A stretch of DNA of 64,000 nt from Geothrix sp. SG200 (GTDB lineage: Bacteria > Acidobacteriota > Holophagae > Holophagales > Holophagaceae), in the NCBI RefSeq assembly GCF_022808935.1, contig NZ_JAKZFR010000008.1:62001-126000 (forward strand), given 5' to 3'. The notes beneath the pieces were generated by a model. That model was not told where the DNA came from, made no database searches, and saw only the letters and a list, made by a program, of their open reading frames with translations. The translations under genes and the position numbers were made by a program. Below are positions 3,737 through 61,372 of the stretch, piece by piece (within the stretch, counting starts at the first letter, position 1; each line of letters begins with the position of its first letter).

Positions 3737-3832
3737 CGAACCCCGACGGGGCCGTCACGCGCCGGCCGGGGCCGCACGGGCCGCGCCATGCGGCGGGCAT
3801 TCTCCGTGAACCAGGTCGCATGGTCCAGGGCG

Positions 3833-6843: not shown

Positions 6844-7051
6844 CGAATGGGATCGCCTCAGAAGAATAAAGGTCATATCATGTTCGACAACGGATTGCTA
6901 CAAGCTTGTCGACTGTCGGTGGGCATCACCGGGAGCCCATGACCTGCGGGCCCCCTTCCTGATCTTTCGAGATGCCGCCTCCGCTCCGGAACAGCCACCC
7001 GGTGAATTCACCCCCGGAATCAACTCATTCCTTCAAACCATCAGGTGTGGC

Positions 7052-8182: not shown

Positions 8183-8280
8183 ACTGGACGATCAAGTCTC
8201 GGATCCCTCCGCGGGTCTCGGGTGAGGGGTGCGAACCAGCAACCGCCGGGTGGCGGGAAGGACCAGAGGCTCCGGACGCG

Positions 8281-9414
8281 TTATGGGTGGCTGGGGGCCA
8301 GTTCCATGAACGCCAGGATGTCCGCTGTCACCCGGCGGACGTCGTAGGTCTCCTCGGCGATCCGCCGGCCCTCAGCCCCGAAGCGGGCGATCAAGCCCCG
8401 GTCCATGGCCAGCTTCGCCATGGCCTCGGCGAGCGCGTCGCTGTTCCGCACCGGAACGAGGAAGCCGTTGCTTCCATTCCGCACGGTGGCCCGGCATCCG
8501 GGGGCGTCCGTGGTGACGACGGCCCGCCCCATGGACATGGCCTCGAGCACGGATCGGGGCGTCCCCTCCCCGTAGGAAGGCAGCACCAGGACATGGGCGG
8601 CGGCCAGGGCCGGGCGGACATCCCCGGTCTCGCCGAGGTACTCCACGATGCCTTCGCGGGTCCAGGCCTCCACCTGCCCCGCCTTGATCGCGTTCGGATT
8701 GCTGTCCAGGGGACCCAGGATCTGGAAGCGTGCGCCCAGGTGCCGGTCCGAGAGGGTCCGGCAGGCCTGGACGTACTCGTTCAGGCCCTTGTCCCGCAGC
8801 AGCCGTCCCACGAAGAGGAAGGTCACGGAGCCAGGGGGGAGCGGCGACTGGACATAGTGGTCCAGGTCCACGCCGGAGCCGTTGATGATCCGCCAGGGGT
8901 GGCCCTCCGGCAGCATCCCTTCGTTCCGGAAGAAGGCCAGGTCGTCCTCGTTCTGGAAGAGGACCCCCCGGCATTGGCGGAGGGCCCGGCGGTAGAAGGC
9001 CTTCACCAGGCGCCGGACCGCCTGGTCGCGGAGTCCCGTGGGGGTGCCCTGGAGGGTGGTTCCCCGGCCGGTGATCATGGCAAAGCGCTGGTGGACCCCC
9101 GCCTGGCGGGCGGCCAGCGTCCCGAAGGCCACGGCCTTCACCTCATAGGCCAGGAGGGCCTCGAGGCGCAGGTGGCGGAACAGGTTCCGCAGGCGGACGA
9201 GGCTGGCCAGGTCCCGGAGGGGGTTCAGGCCTGTGCGGTCGAGGGTGATGGGAACGTAGGTGGCGCCGAGCGCCGCCAGGCTCGCCTGGATCCCGGCGGT
9301 GCCGCCGGGGGCGATGCCGTAGACCTCATGCCCCGCCCGGGCCATCTCCGAGATGAGGTGGCCGCGGAAGTTCACCAGGTCCCTCGCCTCGCCTCCCAGC
9401 ACTCCGATCCGCAT
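8281..9414 (-). CDS. Glycosyltransferase family 4 (PglA-like)
   Basis: This 377-residue GT-B enzyme adds a sugar to an undecaprenyl-linked intermediate on the cytoplasmic face. The N-terminal domain starts MRIGVLGGEARDLVNFRG. The C-terminal nucleotide-binding domain has FVGRLLRDKG near residue 202 and the E-x7-E region SYGEGTPRSVLEAMSMGRAV near 280. The overall pattern resembles the PglA branch of GT4, which transfers GalNAc to bacillosamine. That specificity would suit the UDP-HexNAc epimerase gene immediately upstream, whose stop codon overlaps this ATG. It is the last gene of the tviB-epimerase-GT operon. Confidence 0.85.
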   Translation of the reverse strand: MRIGVLGGEARDLVNFRGHLISEMARAGHEVYGIAPGGTAGIQASLAALGATYVPITLDRTGLNPLRDLASLVRLRNLFRHLRLEALLAYEVKAVAFGTLAARQAGVHQRFAMITGRGTTLQGTPTGLRDQAVRRLVKAFYRRALRQCRGVLFQNEDDLAFFRNEGMLPEGHPWRIINGSGVDLDHYVQSPLPPGSVTFLFVGRLLRDKGLNEYVQACRTLSDRHLGARFQILGPLDSNPNAIKAGQVEAWTREGIVEYLGETGDVRPALAAAHVLVLPSYGEGTPRSVLEAMSMGRAVVTTDAPGCRATVRNGSNGFLVPVRNSDALAEAMAKLAMDRGLIARFGAEGRRIAEETYDVRRVTADILAFMELAPSHP

Positions 9415-36353: not shown

Positions 36354-36595
36354 CCCGACAGCCCAACGGGCTGTCTCCGCGGTCCCATTCGCGGGTCCGA
36401 GTCCCATCAGCCACCCGATATGAAGGCGCCCCGCTTCGCGGGGCGCTGATCTGGGGCGGCTGATGGGACTCGAACCCGGCCAACGGCTGGCCCCGGCCCC
36501 CGGGCGCTGCGGAGGCTCCACTGGAGCCTCCTCGCTGGGGCCTACCGGGCCGCCGTTGTTTCTGTCGTGGGTTCGGGCCCGGTTCTCCCCCAATG

Positions 36596-36620
36596 AAAAA
36601 CCCCCCTGGCGGGGGGCTTT
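36596..36620 (-). terminator. Rho-independent terminator in repeat copy 1
   Basis: On the minus strand AAAG-CCCCCC-GCCA-GGGGGG-TTTTT, a 6-bp GC stem followed by a T run. It follows the tRNA-His 3' fragment in the same sense, as at the intact tRNA gene. Confidence 0.75.
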
Positions 36621-36769
36621 CGATCTGGGGCGGCTGATGGGACTCGAACCCGGCCAACGGCTGGCCCCGGCCCCCGGGCGTTGCGGAGGCTCCACTGGAG
36701 CCTCCTCGCTGGGGCCTACCGGGCAGCCGTTGTTTCTGTCGTGGGTTCGAGCCCGGTTCTCCCCCAATG

Positions 36770-36794
36770 AAAAACCCCCCTGGCGGGGGGCTTT
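36770..36794 (-). terminator. Rho-independent terminator in repeat copy 2
   Basis: Same CCCCCC-GCCA-GGGGGG-TTTTT structure as in copy 1, 174 bp away, directly next to the left attachment site. Confidence 0.75.
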
Positions 36795-36844
36795 CGATCT
36801 GGGGCGGCTGATGGGACTCGAACCCACGACACCTGGAATCACAA
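36787..36844. repeat. Left attachment site (tRNA-His 3' duplicate)
   Basis: 58 bp identical to 61282-61339. It contains the tRNA-His 3' half up to the anticodon loop, plus 14 bp of trailer, but lacks the 5' half, so it is not a functional tRNA. To the right the sequence continues with GAAAGGTATCGAA, which is shared with the internal site at 43117-43150. Confidence 0.9.
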
Positions 36845-36907: not shown

Positions 36908-36925
36908 CCCCACAGATACACCACA
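36908..36925. repeat. att-flanking repeat, copy 1
   Basis: CCCCACAGATACACCACA begins exactly 64 bp after the end of the left att core. The same motif with one change begins 64 bp after the internal att core (43201), and another variant lies near the right end (61149). It is a candidate integrase arm-binding site. It ends 2 bp before the stop codon of the RND gene. Confidence 0.7.
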
Positions 36926-36927
36926 AT

Positions 36928-43062: not shown

Positions 43063-43116
43063 GATGTTGAGTAAATCAATTCATGTGGCCTGATTCACTC
43101 AGCCGTGAACCTGCAT

Positions 43117-43150
43117 CCACGACGCTTGGAATCACAAGAAAGGTATCGAA
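43117..43150. repeat. Internal attachment-like site
   Basis: 34 bp matching 36824-36857 at 32 positions, including GGAATCACAAGAAAGG. It contains the tRNA-His anticodon-arm part of the att core and the same GAAAGGTATCGAA island-side arm. It lies between the metal-efflux operon and the proteasome-like gene, as expected if two related elements inserted in tandem. Confidence 0.75.
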
Positions 43151-43200: not shown

Positions 43201-43218
43201 CCCCACAGATGCACCACA
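43201..43218. repeat. att-flanking repeat, copy 2
   Basis: CCCCACAGATGCACCACA begins 64 bp after the end of the internal att core, the same spacing as copy 1 at the left att. Confidence 0.7.
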
Positions 43219-43227
43219 CAGCAGCAG

Positions 43228-44037
43228 CTAGGGTGTAGCCGGAGAGCCTGGAACAGGCACTCCAGGTATTGCAGTCGATGTCCCGGTATTTATTCCCTTG
43301 ATCTCATTGATCAACGCTGTCTCCGCCGCGTTGATTTTTTCGAGGTGTTCCCCGATGTCGGTGTCTGAAGCGGATTGAACAGTTGGTAGGTCCCCTGGTT
43401 TCGATGGAAGAGGAAGGATGGCCATCTGGATCCCTCCACCAACGCCACCAGGGTTTGTTCGTTTTACGTGATCTATGGTCCAAGCTGCCACCAGCCGTCC
43501 TTCACTTAATGAAGGTTCGGAATCGGACCAGAGCAGGCGTTTTGTGTAAGCCAGAAAAGGATCCGCAATTGCCTGACCACTTCCTAGTGCGACAAAGGGA
43601 AGGTCCTTCGTGCACATCTCCGGTGATCCATTTACGTCAAATTGAAACAGATGTGGCTTTTTATTTACTGGAATTGCGACTAATGATTTGCAAATCGATG
43701 AACCAGCTTCTCCTGTAAGTGACCTTTGGTATTGTGCGGTATGCAAGTAGGGATTAAGGAATTGGGCGATTTCTTTTCCGATCTTGTCCATTACTTGTTC
43801 TGGCTCTGTCAACCCGCTAAAACCGTTGGTTTTCCAGAGCCTAAGAATCTGATTTGAAAGTATTTGCGAAATACCAACGGCCCCTGTAGCAGCGTAAATT
43901 ATATGATCACCAAGGGTTTTGACCTTTTGAACTTGTTGTTGGCCAATGGTGAACATACCACCGGCTCCAAAAGTGGCGGCACTATCAGAGGCAATCAAAA
44001 TTCCGTCTTTACACCGTATTCCAACCAAGACAGTCAT
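43228..44037 (-). CDS. Proteasome-like Ntn-hydrolase (predicted peptidase)
   Basis: This 269-residue protein resembles proteasome beta-subunits or HslV. After Met removal, Thr2 would be the N-terminal nucleophile (MTVLVGIRCKDGILIASDSAA). D18 falls exactly at the Asp17 position of that family, K38 or K40 could be the Lys33 equivalent, and ALGSGQAIADPF matches the conserved Ser-Gly region. The C-terminal ~70 residues, ending in a Pro/Gly/Thr tail, are extra. No ATPase partner is encoded nearby. It is co-transcribed with the small gene upstream (3-bp gap; its AAGGA site lies in that gene). Both are much more AT-rich than the window, a sign of transfer. A toxin, defence or regulatory protease is possible; function is unknown. 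Confidence 0.72.
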   Translation of the reverse strand: MTVLVGIRCKDGILIASDSAATFGAGGMFTIGQQQVQKVKTLGDHIIYAATGAVGISQILSNQILRLWKTNGFSGLTEPEQVMDKIGKEIAQFLNPYLHTAQYQRSLTGEAGSSICKSLVAIPVNKKPHLFQFDVNGSPEMCTKDLPFVALGSGQAIADPFLAYTKRLLWSDSEPSLSEGRLVAAWTIDHVKRTNPGGVGGGIQMAILPLPSKPGDLPTVQSASDTDIGEHLEKINAAETALINEIKGINTGTSTAIPGVPVPGSPATP

Positions 44038-44040
44038 GGT

Positions 44041-44475
44041 CTATCCTTGAAATACACTGTTGGCCTTCATCTCTGGGAAAGCCGCATAAATTGACGAGAC
44101 CAATTGATTAAATGTCAATGATTGTGTCCAGTTAACAATTGTTTCTAGATATTCTTTAACTTCTGGATCCAACCGGTCTTTTAGTGATTTAGCTAATTCT
44201 CTGCCTTTTTCTGTGATTTGATATTGTCTATAACGCGAAATCGGAGGACGTGTAATTGTTATCAAACCTTCAAATTCTAAACGCTCAGCATCTGAATATA
44301 CTTCACCGCAAAATGGGCCATAATCATACGGATCAAACGGATAAAATGAACTTGATTTAAGTTTATCTGCATCAAATTTTTTACTGATGATGAAGAGGCT
44401 CTTTTGTAGCTGAACAGGTTGCAGTGGACCTTCTCCCGACGAAATTGTCATCAGTGTCCAATCTCTTGGGGTCAT
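44041..44475 (-). CDS. Small Panacea/SocA-like (DUF4065-like) winged-helix protein
   Basis: This 144-residue protein has VQLQKSLFIISK, then FYPFDPYDYGPFCGEVYSDAERLEFEGLI, which recalls the LQK..YFA and YGP..P.VY motifs of Panacea/SocA antitoxin domains. YQITEKGRELAKSL follows, a winged-helix-like phrase seen in PadR-type and phage-associated proteins. It is very AT-rich compared with its neighbours. GAGG precedes the ATG. Directly upstream of the proteasome-like gene, it may be that protein's antitoxin, adaptor or regulator. The family assignment rests on motif resemblance only. Confidence 0.6.
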   Translation of the reverse strand: MTPRDWTLMTISSGEGPLQPVQLQKSLFIISKKFDADKLKSSSFYPFDPYDYGPFCGEVYSDAERLEFEGLITITRPPISRYRQYQITEKGRELAKSLKDRLDPEVKEYLETIVNWTQSLTFNQLVSSIYAAFPEMKANSVFQG

Positions 44476-44724: not shown

Positions 44725-45897
44725 TCAGAAAGGGCTTTCCCGTTCCGTCCCCTCGGACAGCACCTGCAAGACCTGGCTGTAGGCGAACAGCCGGTTACGC
44801 TGGCCCCCGGTAATCTCCCGGACGATACCCATCTCCGTCAGGGCCTTCAGGGCCTTATTGACGGTGGCGGGGGAGAGGTTCTCGGCGTCGCCGATGGCCG
44901 AGGCGGAGGCAATGGGCCGCCCTTGTAGGTAGTGGTGGACCTGTAGGACGGACCCCGCGATCTTGCCGTAAGCCTGGATGCGCTTCCGGTCGTCGGAGAA
45001 TAGCTGGAGTAGCCGCTGGGCGGTCGAGACCGCGCTGTCGGAGGTCTCGGTAACGCCCTGGAAGAAGAAGTCGAGCCAAGCCTCCCAGTCGCCCTCGATG
45101 CGGACCTTTTGCAGCAGCTCGTAGTAGGTCTCCCGGTGCTGCTTCAGGAAAAGGCTGAGGTATAGGAGGGGTTCGCGCAGCACGCCTTCCACGCTGAGGA
45201 GCAGGGTGATGAGCAGGCGCCCCACGCGCCCGTTGCCGTCCAGGAAGGGGTGCAAGGTCTCGAACTGCACATGTGCCAGGGCCGCCCGGGTCAGGGGGTC
45301 GGCGATGGTGGCGTCCCCATGCAGGAAGGTCTCCCAGGTCTTCAGGCACTCGGGGAGTTCCTCATGGGGCGGCGGGACGAACTTGGCGTTGCCGGGGCGG
45401 CTGCCGCCAATCCAGTTCTGGCTGGTCCTGAACTCCCCGGGCTGCTTCCCGCTGCCCCGGCCCGAGGTGAGCAGCACCTCGTGAATCTCGCGGATGAGCC
45501 GCAAGCAGAGGGGGAAGCCCTCCTTGAGACGCTTCAGCCCGTGGTTCAGGGCTGCGACGTAGTTGGACACCTCGACCACGTCGTCCAGGGGGACCCCGGG
45601 GGCGTGCTGGTTCTCGTAGGCCAGCAGGTCAGAGAGGGAGGACTGTGTTCCCTCGATCTGGCTGGAGAGCACGGCCTCCTTGCGGACGTAGCTGTAGAGG
45701 AACAGGGCCGGGTCCGGCAGCAGGGCCGTGACCCCATCTAGGCGACCCAGGGCCAGGGCGGCCCGCTGTTGGGCGGCCAGCAGTCCTGGGGTCCACTGGA
45801 TGGGGGGATCAGGTGGCAGGGGGTGTGGAACGAATGCCCGGACGGGTTCGCCCTGGGTCGTCTGCACGACGTAGCGGCCTGTGATGTCCCGCTTCAT
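44725..45897 (-). CDS. Fic-domain protein (predicted AMP- or nucleotidyltransferase) with own inhibitory motif and winged helix
   Basis: This 390-residue protein has an N-terminal inhibitory helix S78-SQIEG83 ([S/T]xxxE[G/N]). The Fic core holds the complete motif HPFLDGNGRVGR at 216-227. The C-terminal winged helix (ASAIGDAENLSPATVNKALKAL) should bind DNA. Such class II/III Fic proteins modify target proteins and keep themselves inactive. The ATG at 45897 is chosen over 45969 because the latter would read through two palindromes upstream. Those palindromes are probably its own operators. No separate antitoxin gene is seen. Confidence 0.9.
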   Translation of the reverse strand: MKRDITGRYVVQTTQGEPVRAFVPHPLPPDPPIQWTPGLLAAQQRAALALGRLDGVTALLPDPALFLYSYVRKEAVLSSQIEGTQSSLSDLLAYENQHAPGVPLDDVVEVSNYVAALNHGLKRLKEGFPLCLRLIREIHEVLLTSGRGSGKQPGEFRTSQNWIGGSRPGNAKFVPPPHEELPECLKTWETFLHGDATIADPLTRAALAHVQFETLHPFLDGNGRVGRLLITLLLSVEGVLREPLLYLSLFLKQHRETYYELLQKVRIEGDWEAWLDFFFQGVTETSDSAVSTAQRLLQLFSDDRKRIQAYGKIAGSVLQVHHYLQGRPIASASAIGDAENLSPATVNKALKALTEMGIVREITGGQRNRLFAYSQVLQVLSEGTERESPF

Positions 45898-45912
45898 GGC
45901 GCCCCCGGAAAG

Positions 45913-45978
45913 TAAAACAAGGATGATCCTTGTTTTAGAAAAGGGCAAACAACTAAAACAAGACATCACCTTGTTTTA
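45913..45978. promoter_or_regulatory. Two 25-bp palindromic operators before the fic gene
   Basis: TAAAACAAG-N7-CTTGTTTTA occurs at 45913-45937 (where the centre is also symmetric: GATGATC) and again at 45954-45978. The centres are 41 bp, close to four helical turns, apart. They lie 16-81 bp upstream of the fic start, so binding of a dimer at both sites could repress fic. The divergent integrase at 46185 may also be affected. Confidence 0.78.
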
Positions 45979-46184
45979 CGTCTTGATGGGGGCCAGCGGT
46001 GTCCACCAGGTCGGCTCCGAAAGACGTATCTACCTAGCGTTGCGTGTATTTCCAGAATATTTCGACGCTATGCCCGCCGTCCCCACCAGGGCTTCGCCAC
46101 CTGGATCCACTTTGGGGTGCATTCCAGGATGTGAACGACCTACTCGGCAGTGGACGGGGTCACCCCGCCATCACCGAGGGGTTC

Positions 46185-47327
46185 ATGGCGCAGTCCGGCT
46201 ACAAGAACGGGTTGAAGAAGACCCCCAAGGGTTTCTGGGCATTCAAAATCCGGGTGGGCCGCCAGACCAAGGAAGGGACGTTTCCCACCACCCAGTTGCA
46301 GACGGCGAGAAAACTGCTCGAACGGGTCCGCGATGACCTCCTTCGCCAGCAGGAGGGCCTGGAAGTCGAGCTGACCGTCAGCGAAGCCATGGACTACTGG
46401 CTGGATAGCAGCTACGCCAGAGCCAAGCATCTGGATCGCGCCAACTATGCCTTCGACCGCGCCCGCCCGGTGCTGGGCAGCGTGCAGGTCCGCCGCCTCA
46501 CCCAGGCGACCATCATCGCCTTCAAGCGCACCCTCCTCGAATCCGACGACCCAGACCGGCGCCCGCTCGCTCCGACGACCGTGAACATCGTGCTCCGCTA
46601 CCTGGCGGTGGCCATCAACTGGGCCGTGAAAAACAAGAAAATTGCTGAGAACCCCTTGAAGCAGATGCCTTACGAGCCCGTGCCGGAGGACAACCGACCT
46701 TTCCTCGTCCGGGACGACCTGATCCCCTTCCTGATGAAGGTGGACGCCCTAGGCAACGCCCACCAGCAGGTGGCCATCCGGGCCATGCTCCTTATGGGGC
46801 TACGCGAGTCCGAGGCCCTGCGGCTCCGCTGGGACGGCTTCACCGGCGACTGGGCGTTCTACGCTCCGGCCCGTGCGAAGAACGGGAAGGCTCAGCCTAT
46901 CCCTGTCCAAGCCGAGGTGCTCCGGGCGGTCAGGGCGTTGCCGCAGAAGTCTGAGTGGGTCCTCCCAGGGAGGGCCGGGTCCCTGCACCTGAAGGGCTAC
47001 ACCCGCAAGGTCGTGGAGGAGGCCGGGGTCGAGATCGGCAAGCCCGGGCTGACCCCCCACCGCCTCCGAGCCTCGTGCGCGACCATCCACGCGGCCAGGG
47101 GAGCCAACGCCTTCCAGATCCGTGACCTGCTCCGCCATGAGCGGATTGCGACCAGTCAGAAGTATGTGAACAAGGTCCCATGCAACCTCCAGGTCGTGGT
47201 CCAGACCACGTTCGATGGGATCACCGAGATGTTCACCCGAGTTGTCCCTATCACGCCCCAAGCGATGCCCGGCGGTGTGGGTCAGATCGACCCATCCGAC
47301 GACCCAACCGGAGAACCGAACCGATGA
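46185..47327 (+). CDS. Tyrosine recombinase (phage/island integrase) 1
   Basis: This 380-residue integrase has an N-terminal SAM-like core-binding half (about 60-160). The catalytic domain has R207 (GLRESEALRLRW), the H-x-x-R box H292-RLR295, H318 and the nucleophile Y327. The Arg-I, His, Arg-II, His and Tyr residues are all there, so it should be active. The start at 46185 follows GAGGGG. Its stop overlaps the following HTH gene. It is a candidate enzyme for tRNA-His integration. Confidence 0.9.
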   Translation: MAQSGYKNGLKKTPKGFWAFKIRVGRQTKEGTFPTTQLQTARKLLERVRDDLLRQQEGLEVELTVSEAMDYWLDSSYARAKHLDRANYAFDRARPVLGSVQVRRLTQATIIAFKRTLLESDDPDRRPLAPTTVNIVLRYLAVAINWAVKNKKIAENPLKQMPYEPVPEDNRPFLVRDDLIPFLMKVDALGNAHQQVAIRAMLLMGLRESEALRLRWDGFTGDWAFYAPARAKNGKAQPIPVQAEVLRAVRALPQKSEWVLPGRAGSLHLKGYTRKVVEEAGVEIGKPGLTPHRLRASCATIHAARGANAFQIRDLLRHERIATSQKYVNKVPCNLQVVVQTTFDGITEMFTRVVPITPQAMPGGVGQIDPSDDPTGEPNR

Positions 47328-47620
47328 CCACCACCAGCACGAAGGCCACCCCCACGACGGTGGCCACCGAAGCCGACACCACCACCATGACCTTCAAGCG
47401 CCTGCTCGGCACCGACGAGCTTGTGCTCCGGCTCCGGGAGCTGATGCCCGGCGGGATCTCCAAGCGAACGATCTACCTGTGGTGTGACATGGGGTGCCCG
47501 CACGTCCCTGTTCCCGGCGCCAGGAAGAAGCTGGGCTTCGTATTCACCGAGGTCATGGAGTGGGTCCTGTCCCACAAGGTCGAGCGGAACGTCTTCGCAA
47601 GCCCCCGGCGGGTGGCGTGA
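47324..47620 (+). CDS. Small HTH DNA-binding protein between the two recombinases
   Basis: This 98-residue protein has a Thr-rich N-terminus, then ELMPGGISKRTIYLWCDMGCPHVP, an excisionase/AlpA- or MerR-like helix-turn-helix in which 'SKRTIYLWCDMGCP' would be the recognition part. It is overlapped by 4 nt at its start and 3 nt at its end with the recombinase genes, so all three are translated together. A likely recombination directionality factor or regulator. Confidence 0.72.
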   Translation: MTTTSTKATPTTVATEADTTTMTFKRLLGTDELVLRLRELMPGGISKRTIYLWCDMGCPHVPVPGARKKLGFVFTEVMEWVLSHKVERNVFASPRRVA

Positions 47621-48789
47621 TGAAGAAGAAGGCGCAGGAGAAAACCTCCCAGGCGACGCCTCGGGTGAAGCCCCCCGACGACCATCGCCTCGTCGAGGTC
47701 AACCCAGAGGTCCCCCGAAAAGTCCGTCCGGACCCCGACCTTGTCACCCCGGACTTGGTCGTCCGGATGCCCGCCGCCAAGGTTCCGATAACAAGAGTTA
47801 TCAGCACCACCACCTCACCGGCGGGGATCCAGGTCATCCCCGGCGCGACCCCTGTCCAGATGGTGATCGCCTCCTTCATCAGTGGGGGCCTCGACAGCGA
47901 GGACACCCGGCGTGCTTACCGTCGTCACCTTCACGATGCTGTTGCCATTCTTGGTGTAGAGGATGTCCGTGACCTGACCGGGGCGCGGCTCGCGGGTTAC
48001 CGGGCCCGCCTTTTGGCCGATGGGCGTGGACCTGCCACCCACGCCCAGGCCCTCGCGGCAGTCCGGGCCTTCCTTCGCTGGGTTGGCGGGGTCTTCCACC
48101 TCCGCCAATTCGACGGCGAGGTTCTCCGGGCAACCCTCCGGGCCCCACGCGTCTCCGTGATCAAGCCCTACTTGGTGCTCACCGAGGCGGAGACCGCCAG
48201 GATGATCAAGGCGGCGGCGGACCGCCGGGACCGGGCCATCGTGATGACCCTCCTCGGCGCTGGGCCACGAGTCTCCGAGCTGACCGGCCTTGATGTTCGG
48301 GACCTCCGCCAGGATGCAGACGGCGGAGACATCCTCCACATCCGGGCAGGCAAGGGCGCGAAGGACCGGATGGTCCCCATCCACGAGGAGGTCACCCGGG
48401 CCATCCACGCCTACTTGTCAAGCTCGGGGCGCACGACCACCGACTCGGGGCCCCTGTTCCTTGCCCAGGATCGCGGGCGTCACCTTCGAACCCAGACCAG
48501 GGTCGGAGCGCGGGCGGTCCGGGACCTCATCTATCTTCTGCATGATCTGGCTGAGATCGCGAAGCCCATCAGCCCCCACAGCCTCCGCCACAGCTTCGCG
48601 ATCAGGGCCTTGCGCTACAGCGGGAACATCCTCGCCGTCTCGAAGATGCTCGGCCACGCCAACGTGGCCACGACCCAGACCTACCTGGACCACCTCGGCC
48701 TGGGTGAGCTTCGGCGGGCGGTCCCACATCTTCCTGTAGCGGATGGGGGACGTGATGAAGACGGCACGGCGATGACGATGTTGCCGTGA
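47620..48789 (+). CDS. Tyrosine recombinase 2 (XerC/D-like)
   Basis: This ~389-residue recombinase has a basic, Pro-rich N-terminal extension (~70 residues). A core-binding domain follows (about 85-175), then the catalytic domain with R217 (GAGPRVSELTGL), the beta-hairpin Lys (GKGAKDRMVP), H320-SLR323, H346 and Y355. It is unlike recombinase 1 in sequence detail. The TGATG overlap with the small HTH gene shows co-translation. A pair of different recombinases may be needed for integration and excision. Confidence 0.88.
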   Translation: MKKKAQEKTSQATPRVKPPDDHRLVEVNPEVPRKVRPDPDLVTPDLVVRMPAAKVPITRVISTTTSPAGIQVIPGATPVQMVIASFISGGLDSEDTRRAYRRHLHDAVAILGVEDVRDLTGARLAGYRARLLADGRGPATHAQALAAVRAFLRWVGGVFHLRQFDGEVLRATLRAPRVSVIKPYLVLTEAETARMIKAAADRRDRAIVMTLLGAGPRVSELTGLDVRDLRQDADGGDILHIRAGKGAKDRMVPIHEEVTRAIHAYLSSSGRTTTDSGPLFLAQDRGRHLRTQTRVGARAVRDLIYLLHDLAEIAKPISPHSLRHSFAIRALRYSGNILAVSKMLGHANVATTQTYLDHLGLGELRRAVPHLPVADGGRDEDGTAMTMLP

Positions 48790-48847
48790 ACGGGAAACCC
48801 GACTTCCGAGATCAAGGGTGAACCCTCTTGATCCCTGGAGGCCCCAC

Positions 48848-49171
48848 ATGACCCCAACCGATCTCATCACGGCCAGAGAGACCGCCCAGCGCCTCCACGT
48901 CGCCGTCGGCACCCTCAAGCGATGGCGCCGATGCCATGCCGGTCCTCCCTGGTGCCGGGTTGGGAGCCGGGCCGTCCGCTACTCGGTGGCCCTCCTGGAA
49001 GTCTGGCTGGGCAGGGAGAACGCGGGGGCCGGTTTCGACACGGGGAACAGCTCCGAGGGGCGCGGTCGGACCGACGATCTCGCGGGTATCATCCCTTCGC
49101 CAGCAGCCGACCAGGGCCCGCACCCCCGGCGCTGGAACTTCCTCGCCAACATCCGCCCCCAAGGCGGGTAG
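48848..49171 (+). CDS. Small HTH (excisionase/MerR-like) protein
   Basis: This 107-residue protein has the motif LITARETAQRLHVAVGTLKRWRRCHAGP, a helix-turn-helix with the 'W' and 'GPPW' of excisionase-type DNA-binding proteins. A long unstructured C-terminal part (about 60-107) follows. GGAGG lies six bases upstream of the ATG. A hairpin near 48811-48836 separates it from the recombinase gene. Position suggests an excisionase or regulator for the island or for the reverse transcriptase gene that follows. Confidence 0.68.
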   Translation: MTPTDLITARETAQRLHVAVGTLKRWRRCHAGPPWCRVGSRAVRYSVALLEVWLGRENAGAGFDTGNSSEGRGRTDDLAGIIPSPAADQGPHPRRWNFLANIRPQGG

Positions 49172-49316
49172 GAGTCCCCATGCTCGTCCAACCCTCGAAC
49201 CGTGGCCCTCCTGGCGGCCGACCCCGTTCGCGGCTTCGCCGCGCCCGGGGTCGGGCCCAGACCCGACCAACACCCGGATCGACCATCGTCTTCAGAACTT
49301 CCCCGAGGCCAACGGC

Positions 49317-50765
49317 ATGACCAAGCTAGCCATGAACACCATGTCTGTCACTCGGCGGGGCCGGGGTCGATCCCGCGCGAGTTTCGAGAACACTACCACC
49401 GAGAACATCATCACCATGGAGGACCTCCAGCAGGCGGTCCACAGGATCAACCGAGAGGCGAAGCCCGGGATCGACGGTGTCACCGCCAAGGACTACCTAA
49501 AGGACGCCAACCAGAACCTCCGGCGAGTCTTCAGGGACATCCACAGCGGCCACTGGAGACCCAGGCCCGTGCGCAAGGCCCCGATCTACAAGGGCCCCGG
49601 GGAGAAACGCATCCTGGGTATCCCCTGTATAGAGGACAAGGTCGTGCAGTGGGCCATGGTCTTCCACCTAGAACCGTGGATGGAGGGCATCTTCCTCCCC
49701 TGCTCCTTCGGGTTCAGACCCCACGTGGGGACCATCGACGCCTGCAAGAGGATCCGGGATAACCTCGCCACTTGGCAGGGAGCCTGGATCATCGACGCCG
49801 ACATCCGGAAGTTCTTCGACTCCATCCCCCACGGGGTGCTCATGAGCATCTTGAAGAGGATGGGCCTCTCGAAGTTCTACCGGCGCCTGATCTTCCAGTT
49901 CCTGAAGGCTGGGACCCAGGACGGGCGGCAGTGGGAAGCGACGACCAAGGGAACCCCCCAGGGCGGCGTGATCTCACCCTTGCTGGCGAACGTCGTCCTC
50001 CACGTTGCCCTGGACACGTGGTTCTACGAGACGGTTCTCCCCGGCCTCACCGGACGGGCTGACCTGATCAGATACGCGGACGATTACGTGGCGATGTTCG
50101 AGGACGAGGCGGAAGCCCGGACCTTTCTTCAGGCAGTCACTGCACGCCTGAATGAGTTCGGCCTGGACATCCACCCCGAGAAGACCAGGATCGTCAACTG
50201 CCACGGCACCTCCACGGACATGCCCTCCTCGGACATGGCCACAGCGGAGCCGACGGCGCTGAACTTCCTGGGCTTCACACTCTCCATGGCGCCGGGGCAG
50301 GACTCGTCTTCGATCCAGGTCACCACCTCTCCGATCAGCATCTCCAGATCGGTGGGGAAGTGGCGCCGCTACATGGAGAAGTGGCAATTCCTCTCTGACC
50401 AATGGCAAGCCCATCCTGATCGCCGTGGGGAGCTTGAGGAACCCCTCGACGCCAATGGACTCCTGGACAAGATCCAGAAGAGCGTAGGCGGCTTCCTCGC
50501 CTACCAGAGCCACCTCAGTGACCTCGATGGCCATCTCCACTACTTGGAGGCCGTGAGGCCCGTTCTCGAAGCCCTGATGCGCAGGGCACAGGCCACTAAC
50601 ACCCACCTGACACGTCTCAAGATGATGCTCTCCCCGGGGAACATCCAGACCCTCATCGACGAAGCACGTCAGCGTGGGCGTTACTTTAAGTCTCTATCCG
50701 GCGACTGGCGAACCTACCTGCATGGCTACCAGGTTGTTCGCCCGGGCATGGGAGAAGCCGTCTGA
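49317..50765 (+). CDS. Stand-alone reverse transcriptase, group II-intron-like
   Basis: This 482-residue RT has KPGIDGVTAKDY (RT0/1), RPRPVRKAPIYKG with RILGIPCIEDKVVQWAM (RT2), DADIRKFFDSI (RT3), GTPQGGVISPLLANVVLH (RT4), the catalytic Y253-ADD256 (RT5) and LNFLGFTL (RT7). The C-terminal ~150 residues are alpha-helical, thumb-like and then unfamiliar. There is no HNH endonuclease, and no intron domain V is seen downstream. QG..SP rather than SQ argues against a diversity-generating retroelement. It may be a domesticated RT, possibly for defence or repair. The start at 49317 is the first in-frame ATG before the conserved region. Confidence 0.85.
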   Translation: MTKLAMNTMSVTRRGRGRSRASFENTTTENIITMEDLQQAVHRINREAKPGIDGVTAKDYLKDANQNLRRVFRDIHSGHWRPRPVRKAPIYKGPGEKRILGIPCIEDKVVQWAMVFHLEPWMEGIFLPCSFGFRPHVGTIDACKRIRDNLATWQGAWIIDADIRKFFDSIPHGVLMSILKRMGLSKFYRRLIFQFLKAGTQDGRQWEATTKGTPQGGVISPLLANVVLHVALDTWFYETVLPGLTGRADLIRYADDYVAMFEDEAEARTFLQAVTARLNEFGLDIHPEKTRIVNCHGTSTDMPSSDMATAEPTALNFLGFTLSMAPGQDSSSIQVTTSPISISRSVGKWRRYMEKWQFLSDQWQAHPDRRGELEEPLDANGLLDKIQKSVGGFLAYQSHLSDLDGHLHYLEAVRPVLEALMRRAQATNTHLTRLKMMLSPGNIQTLIDEARQRGRYFKSLSGDWRTYLHGYQVVRPGMGEAV

Positions 50766-50967
50766 TCAGCGGTTTCGACTCGGCGTCAAACGGGGGGACG
50801 CCCCCGACGGCGACCAAGGCTGGTAACAGCCGTGCCCGCTCACACGCGCATGTTTCAAGGCTATACCTACTGTAATTCTGACTCTGCACTTTCTCACGAC
50901 AACATGAGAGGGCGAGCACGCGGCGCCCCGCCATAAAATCCGCGACGGCACTGGCCGGAATCCAGGA

Positions 50968-51024
50968 GACGGGCCCGTGCACGGGCCCGTCGTCATTTTG
51001 GGCTGACCTCAGCAGGGTCAGCCC
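50968..51024. terminator. Two strong hairpins between the RT and hsdR genes
   Basis: A 24-bp perfect palindrome (50968-50991; half-site GACGGGCCCGTG) is followed by TCATTTTG. A second stem, GGGCTGACC / GGTCAGCCC (51000-51008 and 51016-51024), comes next. They lie between converging genes and probably form a bidirectional terminator, although a structured RNA linked to the RT cannot be excluded. The rest of the 295-bp gap shows nothing recognisable. Confidence 0.6.
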
Positions 51025-51060
51025 TGGCGGGCCGGAGCAATTGATCAGGCACTCTGGCGG

Positions 51061-54000
51061 CTATACCGGGGTATCTGCCTTCTCCTTCTTGAGGGCGCCG
51101 TAGACCTTGTGAAGCATGTGCTCCAGGGCCATCTTCCGGAACTCTCCGTCGCCCATGAGCCTGCTGAAGATCTCCTCGTTGCCCTCCATGCGGTCGATGA
51201 CCAAGCCCTCGAAGGCCTTCTCGAAGACGTAGCGGAAATCGTCCTTGGTGTTGGTCGCCGCCGCCTTCTGGAGAGCGTCATTCTCGACGGCCTCCTCCTG
51301 GATCTGATCGAAGAACAACTGGTCGGCCAGGGTGAAGTCCGTCCCGAAGCGCTCGTTCAGGATGTCGATGAGTTCCGACAGGCGGATCTTCTGGTCCTGC
51401 TGGCCGGTGCCCACATCACTCGGCCCCTTCAAGGGTTTCCCGTCCCCGGTATCCAGGTCGATTCGCCCTTCGCTGATCTTTTGCAGCCGGTAGTATTGCA
51501 GCCCGATTTCATCTTCCAGGTGCAGGGCTGGTCCCGCCTCCCGCTTCGGCAGCTTGGTCAGCAGGAACCGGAGGTAGGTGTAGAGGCGCTCCAGATCCGA
51601 GTCCAGGTAAGGGATCACCTGGGAGAGGAAGGCATACATGTTGCGGAAGTTGACCAGCAGGGTCTTCGCCTCCTCCCGCTCCTCCTCCGGGCGACCCTTG
51701 AATCGCTCCACCGCCTTGTCCAGGATGCCGTTCATCTCGGCGCTGTCCTGGAAGGTCTCCTGGCGGTGCGGCCTGAAGTAAACGTCTGCGAACGTCTTGA
51801 CCTCCTCCTCGAAGATCAGGTTGGTCTCCTCGATCTGGTGCTGGAGCCGATAGAGATGCTGAGGGTCTGTCAGCGGCTCCGTCGGTGTGTCCTCGTAGTA
51901 GGGCTTGAACGCCTTGAAGATCTCCTCGGGCTTGTTCCGGAAGTCCAGGATGAAGGTGTCCTCCTTCCCGGCGCAGGTGCGGTTCAGCCGGGATAGGGTT
52001 TGGACGGCCTGAAGGCCCGTCAACTTCTTGTCCACATACATGGTGTGGAGCAGGGGCTGGTCGAAGCCCGTCTGATACTTCTCAGCCACCAGGAGGACTT
52101 GATACTCCTGGGTGTCAAACTTCCCCGGAAGTTCGCTCTCCTTGATGCCGCCGTTCATGCCCACTTCTGTGTAGTTCTTCCCGGGGACCTTGGGGTCCAC
52201 CACCGTGCCCGAGAAGGCCACCAAGGTCTTCACGTCCTGGTAGCCCTTCTTATTGATGTATTTGTCGAAGGCCAGCTTGTAGCGCACGGCATGTAGCCGG
52301 GAGTCGGTTACGACCATGGCCTTAGCCCTTCCCCCGATCTTGTGCCGGATGTGGGTCCGGAAATGCTCCACCATCACCTCGGTCTTGGTGGCCAGGTTGT
52401 GGGGGTGGAGCGTCAGGACACGGGCCAGGGCCCGGGCGGCCTTCTTCCGCTCAACATGCACGTCTTCCTCGGTGGCCTGGATGATGCGGAAGTAGGCCTC
52501 GTAGGTGACGTAGTGCTTGAGAACGTCGTGGATGAACCTCTCTTCGATGGCCTGCCGCATGGTGTAGAGGTGGAAGGGGGATTCCCCCGTGGGGCCGGGC
52601 TCGTCGAACACCTTCTTCGTTTTGTATTTAGGGGTGGCGGTGAAGGCGAAGTAGCTCAAGTTCGGCTGCTTCCCCCGCTTCATCATCTCCCGCACGACCC
52701 CGGCGAGGCGGTCGGGGTCCTCATCCTCCTCCGGTCCGTGCTCGGCGGCGTAGGCTGCCGCCTCTTCGGCCAGACGATCGGCATTGAGGACCCCCTTCAG
52801 CTCCGTGGCGCTCTCGCCGGACTGGGAGCTGTGGGCCTCGTCCACGATGACGGCAAACTGCTTGTCCTTCGTGGCGATGCTCAGGCCGTGGAAGCCTTCC
52901 TCCCGGAGTTTCTCCAGGGTCTCGGCGATGAAGGGGAACTTCTGCAAGGTGGTGATGACGATCGGCGTCCCATTGGCGAGCGCCTGCACCAACTGGCGGG
53001 TGTCCTCATCGACCTTCTGGACCACGCCGTCCTTGTGATCGAATTGGTGGATCGTGTTCTGAAGCTGCTGGTCCAGCACCCGGCGGTCTGTGACCACCAC
53101 CACGCTGTCGAAGACCTTCTTGTCCTGGGCGTCGTGGAGGCTCGACAGGCGGTAGGCCAGCCAGGCGATGGAGTTGGACTTGCCGGAACCAGCGGAGTGC
53201 TGCACCAGATAGTTCCTGCCGGGGCCATGCTCCTGGGCGTGATGCACCAGACGGCGGACACAGTCGAGCTGGTGGTAGCGGGGGAAGATCATCGTCTCCT
53301 TGGTGATCTTCTTGATCCCCTCGTCGGTCAGGATCCGCTTCTCTTCCTCCTGGAGATGCAGGTAGCGGCCCAGGATGTCCATCAGGCTGTCCCGCTGCCA
53401 CACCTCCCGCCAGAGGTAGGCGGTGCGGAACCCGCCATCGGTAGCAGGGGGGTTCCCCGCATGGCCGTGGTTGCCGAGGTTGAAGGGCAAGAAGAAGGTC
53501 TTGTCCCCGCTGAGCCGGGTGGTCATGAAGACCTGATCCGGGTCCACGGCGAAGTGGACCAGGGTGCGCCGCTTGAACTCGAAGATCAGCTCCCGGGGGT
53601 CCCGCTCGGTCTTGTATTGCTTCTTGGCGTGGTCCACCGTCTGGCCCGACATGGGGTTCTTCAACTCCGCCGTGGCGATGGGCAGGCCGTTGAGGAAGAG
53701 CACAAGGTCCAGGGACTTCGTGTGGGTCTCGCCATAGAAGAGCTGCCGGGTCACGCTCAGGACGTTCTTCCCGAAGAGGGCCAGCATGTCTGGGTTCATC
53801 CGGTTGGCGGGGGCAAAGGAGGCCACCCGCAGCTTCTTGCCGTAGCACTTGAACCCCTGCCTCAGCACCTTGAGGATGCCCTTGGTCTCCAGCTCCTTCC
53901 CGAGGTGGTCCAGGACGACCTTCTCGGTCTCGGCCTTGTGAATGGCCTTCAGGCTGTCCCAGGCCTTCGCCTGAGTGGACTGGATGAACCCCAGCACGAG

Positions 54001-54141: not shown

Positions 54142-55487
54142 GACTGGGCCGGGGTGGGAATCGCCACATGACGCACATCGATCTGGCCGGTGGTGGCGGC
54201 GGTGATCAATGCAGTGCGGTAATCCGTGAGTTTTGTGACGGTCTTTCCGGCGGTCTCAACCAATCGGTCGAGATACTCCAGACGGCCTTCAAGGAACCGG
54301 ACAATCACTCGTTGCTCAGCAATGGGTGGCACAGGGAAGGCGAATTTCTTGAGCGTGTCTGACTCCACCTTGAGGGTTCCGTGGGCGGACTCTTGGGCGA
54401 GGCTTGACAGGATTTTGGAGAATCCGGTCAGGCACCAGAAGAGGAAACGGGCGTCCAACTCGCCCCCGCAACGGAGAGCCTTCATGTCCTGGTTCACCGT
54501 CACCGGACGCTCCGTAATGCCCACTGGAAAGGAATGAGCGAGGATCATCCCTCGAACAACTACGAGAACAGCACCGTCCGGGATCAACGCAAGGCCAGTT
54601 TCCTCCAGGGCTTTCTCCGTGATGTGATCAATCGAGTCGGAGATCCTCTCTTGCTTCATGTCCTTGGGGGTGACCCATGGAATGTCACCCTCCCAATACT
54701 CTGCCTTCGACGTGCTTGGGGTCATACCCCCTGACATCGTCATCAAGAAGCCGAGGGGGACGATGTCCCAATGCCTTGGCACCCAACCAAGCCAATCGAT
54801 GCAAGAGTCCCTCATGGGGGCGGACAGGTCCAATCCCTTGGTGGCGGCTCGGGTGATGATCGCCGTTCGCTTCTCCTTGAGCTTCTCGACCAGATCCGTC
54901 TTCTTGGTGATCAGGGCATCGATCTGACTTGTCTTCCAATCCAAGAAGGCTGCGATCTGCCTTTGCTCATCCAGCTGTGGAATGGGGAGATAGAGATCTT
55001 TGTATTTTTCGGCGCTGAAGTTCTCGATGGTGGCTTGGATCGATGTGGAACGAATGCAAGCCCAGTAACACGCTGTCTGACAGTAATAAAAAGCATACCT
55101 AGGAAGAATGACCGTCTGATCAGTTCGATATCGGATCAAATAGCCCGCATAGGCCGCTCTTCCCCAACTAGCAAAATACTGAAAACTCTTGCCGACGGTC
55201 CCGCTACGTGCAAGAAGGATGTCTCCATCTTGCAGTAAATAAGGTTCTGCAACGTGTTCTTCGAGGGAGCGGAAGGTGTCTTCATGAAGGGTGCCGTCTT
55301 CCTTCACATCAGTGATCCGAATGTAGCGAGGAAGTTGAGGATCATCTAGAACTGCGGCTTCATTCGCGCCATACATCAGAGTTTCCGATGCCGTGAACCG
55401 TAGCCGCCTAGATGACCAATGTCGAGGTAGGGCTCCCAGCCAGCCCGTCCAGCAGTCGGCGTATTCGGGGTAGGCCGGATACCTCAC
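54138..55487 (-). CDS. hsdS: Type I restriction-modification specificity subunit
   Basis: This 449-residue subunit has two target-recognition domains (about 15-180 and 220-400) with the usual GDILLARSGTVGK and IPLPQL-like phrases and spacer helices (LDEQRQIAAFLDWKTSQIDALI; IAEQRVIVRFLEGRLEYLDRLV). The recognition sequence should be bipartite but cannot be read by eye. It starts with GTG at 55487, whose GTGA overlaps the rhuM stop. The first half is noticeably more AT-rich than the second, as expected for an exchanged recognition domain. Confidence 0.93.
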   Translation of the reverse strand: MRYPAYPEYADCWTGWLGALPRHWSSRRLRFTASETLMYGANEAAVLDDPQLPRYIRITDVKEDGTLHEDTFRSLEEHVAEPYLLQDGDILLARSGTVGKSFQYFASWGRAAYAGYLIRYRTDQTVILPRYAFYYCQTACYWACIRSTSIQATIENFSAEKYKDLYLPIPQLDEQRQIAAFLDWKTSQIDALITKKTDLVEKLKEKRTAIITRAATKGLDLSAPMRDSCIDWLGWVPRHWDIVPLGFLMTMSGGMTPSTSKAEYWEGDIPWVTPKDMKQERISDSIDHITEKALEETGLALIPDGAVLVVVRGMILAHSFPVGITERPVTVNQDMKALRCGGELDARFLFWCLTGFSKILSSLAQESAHGTLKVESDTLKKFAFPVPPIAEQRVIVRFLEGRLEYLDRLVETAGKTVTKLTDYRTALITAATTGQIDVRHVAIPTPAQS

Positions 55488-56488
55488 GCCCCACCTTCCT
55501 TCCCCTTCGCCTGCTTCTCAATGGCTTCCAGGGTCTTGATGTCCTCCGTGTCCGCATCAAGCGCCTCGGCTTGGCGGCGGTTCTGGTCGAAGGCCTCGTA
55601 GCGGTCGTGGGCGATAGCCTTCATGTCCTCGGTGCTGATGGACCCGGCGTGGGTCAGCACGGGGCGGTCGTTGAAGACCAGCAACCTGTCCACGTTCTCC
55701 CGCCAGTAGGCCAGGGTGAGGCTCTTCCGCTCCTTCACCCGGAGTTCGGCCTGCTCCAGGAAGATCACGACCAGGCGGTTCAGGGTGTCGACTTCCTCGG
55801 CGGAGAGGTAGTTCTTGGCGACGATGACATCCTGCTTGCGGACCCTGGACCCGCTCCAGGTGGTGAGGGCCATGTTGGGGGCGTCGGGGTTCGCCCGAGT
55901 GACCACGATCTCCGCCGCCGTCTTCTGGCACACGGCATAGAGGAGCTTGTTCTGCACCTCCGCGAAGAAGAGGTGGGCGTGGGTGTCGTCGGCCCGGTAG
56001 TCGTCGCTGAGGGCGAAGAGGTCCCGGACCTTCTGGTAGAAGCGCTTCTCGGAGGCCCGGATCTCCCGGATGCGGGCCAGCAACTCGTCGAAGTAGTCCC
56101 AGCCGCCGGGGTTCTTGAGGCGTTCGTCGTCCATGACGAAGCCCTTCACCAGGTATTCCGTCAGGTGGCTCGTGGCCCACTGGCGGAACTGGGTGCCCCG
56201 GGGGGACCGCACCCGGTAGCCGATGGCCAGGATCATCTCGATGCGATAAACCTTGACCTTGTAGTTCTTGCCATCCGAGGCAGTCGTCAAGGATTCCTTT
56301 ACAACTGCCCCTTCCGGCAGCTCACCCTCCTCCAGGATGTGCTTGGCGTGGATGCTGACGTTCTGCTTGGTGGTATCGAACAGCTCGGCGATCTCCCCCT
56401 GGGATAGCCACACGGTGCCGTCCATGGCCCGGAACTGCACCTGGGCTTTGCCGTCCTCGCTCCGGTAGAGCACGACCTCGCCGCTCAT
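55484..56488 (-). CDS. rhuM: RhuM-family protein encoded inside the restriction operon
   Basis: This 334-residue RhuM/PF13310-like protein has an N-terminal wHTH-like part (VWLSQGEIAELFDTTKQNVSIHAKHI). A central VYRIEMILAIGYRVRSPRGTQFR motif is typical of Bro-N/RhuM-type proteins, followed by LLYAVCQKTAAEIV and a charged C-terminus. It often occurs between hsd genes. Its role is unsettled; a regulatory or protective function has been suggested by location only. It overlaps both neighbours by 4 nt. Confidence 0.85.
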   Translation of the reverse strand: MSGEVVLYRSEDGKAQVQFRAMDGTVWLSQGEIAELFDTTKQNVSIHAKHILEEGELPEGAVVKESLTTASDGKNYKVKVYRIEMILAIGYRVRSPRGTQFRQWATSHLTEYLVKGFVMDDERLKNPGGWDYFDELLARIREIRASEKRFYQKVRDLFALSDDYRADDTHAHLFFAEVQNKLLYAVCQKTAAEIVVTRANPDAPNMALTTWSGSRVRKQDVIVAKNYLSAEEVDTLNRLVVIFLEQAELRVKERKSLTLAYWRENVDRLLVFNDRPVLTHAGSISTEDMKAIAHDRYEAFDQNRRQAEALDADTEDIKTLEAIEKQAKGKEGGA

Positions 56489-61148: not shown

Positions 61149-61166
61149 CCCCACAAATACACCACA
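61149..61166. repeat. att-flanking repeat, copy 3 (right end)
   Basis: CCCCACAAATACACCACA, one base different from copy 1, lies 116 bp inside the right att copy and in the same orientation as the left copies. Confidence 0.65.
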
Positions 61167-61253
61167 ACGGGTGGGTCTCGGGGGCCAAACAAAGGACTTA
61201 CGAGCACCCGGGAGCACCGAACTGCACCCAGTTGCACTGGTGGTCCCGGACGC

Positions 61254-61290
61254 GAAAAAGCCCCGGAGATGCAGCATCCACGGGGCTTTC
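61254..61290 (-). terminator. Terminator downstream of tRNA-His
   Basis: On the minus strand GAAAGCCCCG...CGGGGCTTTTT, with an inner GATGC/GCATC stem. It is placed directly behind the tRNA 3' end. Confidence 0.75.
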
Positions 61291-61339
61291 GATCTGGGGC
61301 GGCTGATGGGACTCGAACCCACGACACCTGGAATCACAA
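61282..61339. repeat. Right attachment site, inside tRNA-His
   Basis: 58 bp identical to 36787-36844. It covers the trailer, acceptor, T arm, variable region and part of the anticodon arm of the intact tRNA gene, and ends in the anticodon loop. Confidence 0.9.
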
Positions 61340-61372
61340 TCCAGTACTCTAACCAACTGAGCTACAGCCGCC
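61295..61372 (-). tRNA. tRNA-His (anticodon GTG)
   Basis: The minus strand reads GGCGGCTGTAGCTCAGTTGG at the 5' end. The anticodon stem CTGGA/TTCCAG carries a GTG anticodon, the T arm is GTGGGTTCGAGTCCCAT, and the 3' end is CAGCCGCCCCA with encoded CCA. G-1 pairs with C73, the special mark of tRNA-His. The gene is complete and is the target of the island at its 3' side. Confidence 0.96.

Follow-up and report, generated by a model that had tools for sequence, protein, structure and literature searches.

A putative five-gene operon of two tyrosine recombinases, two helix-turn-helix genes and a reverse transcriptase within a tRNA-His island of Geothrix sp. SG200

Analysis of a 64,000-nt stretch of the Geothrix sp. 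SG200 genome (assembly GCF_022808935.1, contig NZ_JAKZFR010000008.1, positions 62,001 to 126,000 of the forward strand; hereafter the window) revealed an operon of five co-directional genes, Int1, HTH1, Int2, HTH2 and RT, in which two tyrosine recombinases alternate with two small helix-turn-helix (HTH) genes and are followed by a reverse transcriptase (RT). From comparison of sequences, and with moderate confidence, we read the operon as the recombination module of an integrative island at a tRNA-His gene, in which Int1 and HTH1 would move the island, Int2 and HTH2 would form a second pair and the RT would have been captured. In its composition the operon resembles two integrase/HTH pairs and a free-standing RT that were assembled together, and the RT is presumably co-transcribed with the integrase genes.

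Gene layout and the two recombinases

The genes of the operon are as follows:

46185..47327, + strand: Int1, tyrosine recombinase of 380 aa, proposed tRNA-His integrase (PF00589 2.4e-15; catalytic residues; relatives)
47324..47620, + strand: HTH1, winged-HTH protein of 98 aa, proposed to be the directionality factor of Int1 (coupling of its homologues with Int1-family genes; AlphaFold2 (AF2) model with weak fold matches)
47620..48789, + strand: Int2, XerC/D-like tyrosine recombinase of 389 aa (PF00589 3.9e-28; XerC model 138.9 bits, below its cut-off of 335)
48848..49171, + strand: HTH2, HTH_17/excisionase-like protein of 107 aa (PF12728 6.1e-5, below gathering; phrog_66 'excisionase and transcriptional regulator' 2.4e-6)
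49317..50765, + strand: RT, free-standing and group II-type, 482 aa, YADD (RVT_1 1.7e-35; TIGR04416 276 bits, cut-off 300; without intron RNA)

The six catalytic residues (R, K, H, R, H and Y) were located by alignment at positions 207, 232, 292, 295, 318 and 327 of Int1 and at 217, 245, 320, 323, 346 and 355 of Int2, and were invariant in all seven aligned sequences. Over 294 aligned columns Int1 and Int2 are 23.8% identical, and a recent duplication was ruled out at this level of identity (24%). Int1 is most like phage-type integrases and Int2 like XerC, XerD and XerA; a PF00589-type profile scan of the window detected no tyrosine recombinase besides these two. By these characters both are complete and mutually unrelated tyrosine recombinases. 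The original prediction of two different complete recombinases in one operon, interleaved with HTH genes in the order Int1-HTH1-Int2-HTH2, was thereby borne out.

That prediction had also described a cassette of four genes at 46185-49171 with full translational coupling. The gene spans were confirmed, with HTH2 ending at 49171, as were the overlaps of a few bases between Int1, HTH1 and Int2, which amount to 4 nt at the Int1/HTH1 junction (ATGA) and 1 nt at the HTH1/Int2 junction (TGATG), the second HTH gene following. The description as full coupling nevertheless overstates this: the best start of HTH2 (ATG 48848, preceded by GGAGG) lies 58 nt past the Int2 stop, or 28 nt if a possible alternative GTG at 48818 is used, and RT starts 145 nt beyond the end of HTH2. 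The four genes are real, but the fifth co-directional gene, RT, had been missed. Short overlaps between neighbouring genes of one orientation are a frequent feature of bacterial operons and by themselves unsurprising.

The tRNA-His island and the proposed roles of Int1 and HTH1

The operon is located within a composite island of 24.5 kb, which is enclosed by an exact 58-bp direct repeat of the tRNA-His 3' end present at both borders. The features that delimit the island and its parts are:

61295..61371, - strand: tRNA-His (gtg) (ARAGORN; Rfam 68.4 bits)
36787..36844, + strand: attL, left copy of the 58-bp direct repeat of the tRNA-His 3' half (identical to 61282-61339 over all 58 bp)
61282..61339, + strand: attR, right-hand repeat copy, which overlaps the 3' half of tRNA-His (exact repeat; tRNA call)
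36908..36926, + strand: end motif CCCCACAGATACACCACAA, left end (three copies across the window against 0.02 expected in shuffled sequence)
43114..43137, + strand: putative degenerate internal att-like junction of two tandem elements (by its sequence; resembles the left ends of the G244, G307 and G276 islands)
43201..43219, + strand: internal copy of the end motif, 2 mismatches (motif scan)
61149..61167, + strand: end motif CCCCACAAATACACCACAA, right end (motif scan)

In a survey of 21 tRNA-His loci within the genus (L016 and L075-L094), four (L083, L084, L085 and L087) carried an empty site, in which the counterpart of the window's left-flank gene (81-96% identity) adjoins tRNA-His and HtrA. 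Judged by the exact repeat and the empty sites in relatives, tRNA-His is the attachment site, in agreement with the original prediction. The 19-bp motif CCCCACARATACACCACAA, allowing up to 3 mismatches, has three copies in the window (36908, 43201 and 61149) against 0.02 expected. It was found in 6 of 21 scanned sister loci (a set leaving out L091, L092 and most further tRNA-His regions), always at island ends, and in none of the other 15. The middle motif copy and the degenerate att-like sequence at 43114-43137 point to two tandem elements: element A (about 36.8-43.1 kb) with RND efflux genes, and element B (about 43.1-61.3 kb) with a proteasome-like protein, Fic, the operon, type I restriction genes and RhuM. 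A left end of the window's type also starts the related islands of genomes G244, G307, G276, G182 and G040.

Of 47 genus genomes, three have a close homologue of Int1, namely the window's own, G307 and G244, which are the genomes whose islands hold both left- and right-end motifs; the islands with the left-end motif only (G276, G182 and G040) contain no close Int1. The G307 homologue is 88% identical over residues 1-196, where its contig ends, and that of G244 is 84% identical over residues 1-197, after which a deletion fuses Int1 to the right end. In the wider phylum, 8 of 297 sampled genomes gave an Int1-family match at 1e-30. Eight Int1-family loci outside the tRNA-His island were inspected for adjacent tRNA genes (L002 and L017-L023): in five the integrase open reading frame (ORF) has a tRNA gene no more than about 160 bp away (tRNA-Met, Thr, Met, Arg and Arg), and in the others the tRNA gene lies at 2.2 kb (L022), at 8 kb (L017) or is absent (L020, a contig of 8.3 kb). 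Because Int1 occurs in all three genomes with both end motifs and five of these eight relatives stand beside a tRNA gene, we interpret it as the likely tRNA-His integrase. As a separate observation, Int1 is lost in G244 and in G307 at one and the same codon, to within 3 nt (196/197; window 46771-46774), with breaks at position 11854 of L016 and at the contig end of L100; this shared breakpoint may reflect either coincidence or a hot spot.

HTH1 has three homologues among the 47 genus genomes (32-38% identity). Two of the three, those of G322 and G252 (33-38%), are coupled to an integrase: HTH precedes Int, with an overlap of 4 nt between the homologue and the start of an Int1-family gene. The third (G308) stands at a contig end. 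With the HTH1 family as query, 3 of 396 phylum genomes matched, the window's genome included. The AF2 model of HTH1 (pLDDT 77, from four sequences) has a helix-helix-strand-helix arrangement; its best Foldseek matches, all weak, were viral DNA-packaging motor proteins (E 0.018), which, going by the title of the third match, we take to be terminase small subunits, and the excisionase RdfS followed at E 0.45. Given the 4-nt overlaps between HTH1 homologues and Int1-family genes in two sister genomes, HTH1 is probably the directionality factor (Xis) of Int1, an assignment based mainly on this gene pairing. In the proposed mechanism, Int1 would recombine attL and attR within the 58-bp tRNA-His core, resulting in integration or excision of the island, with the 19-bp motifs near the ends acting as arm-like sites for Int1 and HTH1 aiding it as Xis.

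Several further features of the island were recorded. At 36448-36844, a 174-bp unit is present in 2.2 tandem copies, each opening with the tRNA-His 3' end, and partial tRNA-His repeats are similarly found near the site in several sister genomes; the tandem copies are possibly old attL remnants or decoy sites. The cargo includes a proteasome-subunit-like protein (43228-44475; PF00227, 4.4e-12) beside a weakly PadR-like protein, and a RhuM-family gene (55484-56488) between HsdS and HsdM of a type I restriction operon, RhuM being likewise cargo of the related G244 and G307 islands. The Fic gene (window 44725-45969, L075 16710-17921, L076 2102-3313) is 94-98% identical between loci. In G276 and G182, Fic is carried by tRNA-His islands of 3.4-4 kb with the same left end, without an integrase and without a right-end motif. 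The idea that these are non-autonomous elements moved in trans was dropped, as they lack the right-end motif and are possibly deletion remnants. The divergent region between Fic and Int1 contains one further feature:

45910..45979, no strand: two palindromes, AAAACAAGGATGATCCTTGTTTT and AAAACAAG-7-CTTGTTTT, possible operators (repeat pair D2/I1)

Through these palindromes the operon could be linked to the regulation of Fic, but a function for Fic itself is more likely, because they are kept alongside it in islands without an integrase.

Int2, HTH2 and the reverse transcriptase

Int2 has few relatives. None that was close was found among the 297 phylum genomes at 1e-30, and a comparison with the genome contig set returned 14 loci with a best long match of 32%. 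Among the 47 genus genomes there was one real relative (G322, 44%), the other matches (about 34-39%) being generic, one per genome, and presumably chromosomal Xer proteins. A profile of Int2 and its G322 relative recovered one further relative from 396 genomes, in G411 of a sister genus (39%). Neither relative has a window-type Int1-family gene or an RT nearby, and in G411 a different recombinase lies 3.3 kb away. A weak HTH2-like match was located about 1-4 kb from the Int2 relative in both G322 (28%, 1.4e-7) and G411 (33%, 1e-3), which hints at an Int2/HTH_17 pairing; HTH_17 proteins are, however, common. Viral contigs yielded five weak relatives of Int2 (35% or less over a long stretch) and no relative of Int1, of RT or of the HTH1 alignment, and plasmids and phages gave distant integrases only.

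An Int2-like gene was absent from all 11 Int1-family loci examined (L002, which spans only 4 kb, L016-L023, L149 and L150), and the only second recombinase ORF among them was a 148-aa fragment in L150. The four- or five-gene order was present in no other genome searched, and a single intact copy of the operon is known. Because Int1 and Int2 are apart in every relative examined, the cassette is, on its distribution, not a conserved unit.

The RT (REVERSE TRANSCRIPTASE, 49317-50765) is group II-like; YADD is retained, as are the conserved RT blocks. No group II intron RNA was found at this gene, either with Rfam on the window or at E up to 5 over 45900-51100. The search finds such RNA at 11 of 14 RT places (L024, L025, L152, L155, L156 and L164-L169; Rfam), and a group II intron behind HTH2 was therefore ruled out. 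The three places without intron RNA were the window, G252 and G322 (L154), and their RTs form the longest branches of the tree (2.34, 2.09 and 3.36, respectively); a common clade of the three is unsupported, given these long branches and weak forks. In G322 the RT has no recombinase nearby. In G252 the RT is located some 0.8 kb upstream of the coupled HTH-Int genes, a second case of an intron-free RT next to an integrase module, so that an association of RTs with recombinases may recur. The AF2 model of the window's RT (mean pLDDT 72.6) is confident in the palm and fingers and poor in the last 40 residues, and in PADLOC the generic group II RT model PDLC01136 matched at 2e-61 and the DRT models at 2e-30 or weaker. 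We regard the RT as a captured intron-free enzyme, although it reads equally well as defence cargo or as a relic. The gap before it holds a further feature:

49218..49254, + strand: strong hairpin between HTH2 and RT (folding of 49172-49330 gave z -2.56, equally stable shuffles 0/200; inverted repeat I16)

Elsewhere, L025 (G021) contains at 3249-8355 a RIT-like trio of adjacent tyrosine recombinase genes that directly adjoins a group II intron and its RT.

For Int2, HTH2 and the RT we infer the following roles. Int2 and HTH2 would constitute a second integrase/HTH pair from another type of element, placed downstream on the same transcript, with a possible directionality role for HTH2 and a separate site for Int2, and the group II-derived, intron-free RT would have been captured as the last gene.

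Comparison with known systems and competing explanations

Long tRNA repeats typically accompany a single phage-type integrase. The window has the border repeat, the empty site in 4 of 21 loci and the phage-type integrase Int1 by which tRNA islands are recognised. With tRNA islands and integrative and mobilizable elements that carry an integrase and a winged-HTH directionality factor it shares the att repeat of the tRNA 3' half, the tyrosine integrase, the small winged-HTH gene, cargo (efflux, Fic, restriction) and tandem accretion. It differs from them in its two unrelated integrases interleaved with two HTH genes, in the RT and in an integrase that is not beside the tRNA. Composite and tandem islands at tRNA genes have been described (PMC8978831, PMC4891358).

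Known multi-recombinase elements include SEs, GInts, RITs and Tn554 (PMC10214605, PMC5385486, PMC8138268), from which the window differs in recombinase number, in the small winged-HTH gene between recombinases, in the internal position of the operon and in the long tRNA repeat. SEs (intA-tfp-intB, srap) likewise alternate recombinases with a non-catalytic gene and are suggested to be translationally coupled (PMC10214605). In contrast, their operon lies at the left end, Tfp is a large, catalytically dead protein of recombinase fold, the footprint is 6 bp and the reported hosts are Gammaproteobacteria; membership was rejected, as the window's middle gene encodes 98 aa with a winged-HTH model and the operon is internal. 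GInts (ginABCD) also combine several recombinases and a small protein in one operon with variable cargo (PMC5385486). They have three recombinase genes at one island end and repeats of 10-17 nt, and with two recombinases in an internal operon the window was not assigned to them. RITs (ritABC) share several tyrosine recombinases in one operon; they comprise three adjacent recombinases and no interleaved HTH genes, and the window, having only two recombinases, was excluded. Tn554-type elements (tnpA, tnpB, tnpC) are set apart by gene order only.

Several integrases paired with several directionality factors in one element are known from tripartite integrative and conjugative elements (PMC5882170, PMC11963761). 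There the pairs occupy separate regions, unlike the single operon of the window. The pairings are reportedly IntS, IntG and IntM with RdfS, RdfG and RdfM. Domesticated group II-like RTs such as G2L4 resemble the window's RT in being group II-type without intron RNA. G2L4 enzymes have YIDD (PMC12337344, PMC4244168), whereas the window's RT has YADD and a poorly conserved maturase region, and membership was rejected on the active site. Literature searches, in which subscription journals were mostly outside coverage, gave no description of such a twin-integrase/HTH/RT operon among the papers listed.

The original prediction that Int1 and Int2 act as a pair in the way of RIT trios found no support: there are two recombinases rather than three, the operon is not at an island end, and the two genes, whose joint occurrence the idea presupposed, are separate in all 11 Int1-family loci and in the two closest Int2 relatives. 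The search it had proposed for the same four-gene order found it in no other genome. A broader version, in which the operon would be one cooperative machine like those of SEs, GInts, RITs or Tn554, with Int1 and Int2 acting jointly on attL and attR, the HTH proteins as obligate auxiliaries and coupling setting the stoichiometry, is unlikely. It would fit the overlaps of 4 and 1 nt, the catalytic completeness of both recombinases and the SE operon, where both integrases are required and coupling is suggested (PMC10214605). It conflicts with the Int1-family genes lacking an Int2-like partner, the internal operon, the gene order found nowhere else and a window without a catalytically dead third recombinase, as well as with the long tRNA repeat, a mark of a single phage-type integrase. 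HTH1 relatives are coupled to Int1-family integrases, and this therefore suggests integrase/directionality-factor pairs rather than a four-part recombinase.

Accretion by decay, in which Int2-HTH2 would be the leftover of a degraded second element and the RT a stranded group II intron protein, both functionless in the island, appears doubtful. The composite island with its internal degenerate att and third copy of the end motif, the visible decay of the related G244, G276 and G182 islands and the long branch of the RT (2.34) all argue for it, but five intact co-directional ORFs with overlaps, complete catalytic residues in both recombinases, a retained YADD and the lack of any intron RNA remnant do not. 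Somewhat more plausible, though still tentative, is that the RT is anti-phage cargo beside the type I restriction system, outside the recombination module and accidentally placed after HTH2, which would be compatible with the roles proposed for Int1 and HTH1. Many intron-free RTs are defence genes, the island holds HsdR, HsdS, HsdM and RhuM, and the DRT models do match at 2e-30 or weaker; on the other hand, the best models (PDLC01136 and TIGR04416) denote a generic group II RT and no defence RT class, and the RT lies on the strand of the integrase operon, opposite to the restriction genes. That all five genes form one working module, with the RT aiding island movement or repair (e.g., by copying or sealing a recombination intermediate), seems very improbable.

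The preferred reading of the operon, a recombination module with Int1/HTH1 as mover, an Int2/HTH2 pair and a captured RT, has to accommodate a number of opposing observations. The nearest left end is 3 kb away from Int1 and attR is 14 kb away, while most Int1 relatives abut a tRNA, and an intact Int1 is known only here, the G244 copy being truncated and that of G307 ending with its contig. The HTH-Int order in G322 and G252 is the reverse of that in the window, HTH1 has no match in Pfam, NCBIfam or PHROG families, and Foldseek with its model gave none at E 0.001. A second att pair for Int2 was not found, and the repeat scan detected no repeats bordering the Int2-RT segment, only short chance-like pairs, on which ground an inserted segment with flanking repeats was rejected.

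If the operon is one functional transcript, a single switch would combine a domesticated RT with two site-specific recombination systems that are independent of each other. It could then serve to test how multi-recombinase elements originate from single integrase/directionality-factor pairs, and whether the use of free-standing group II RTs extends beyond introns to other mobile elements.

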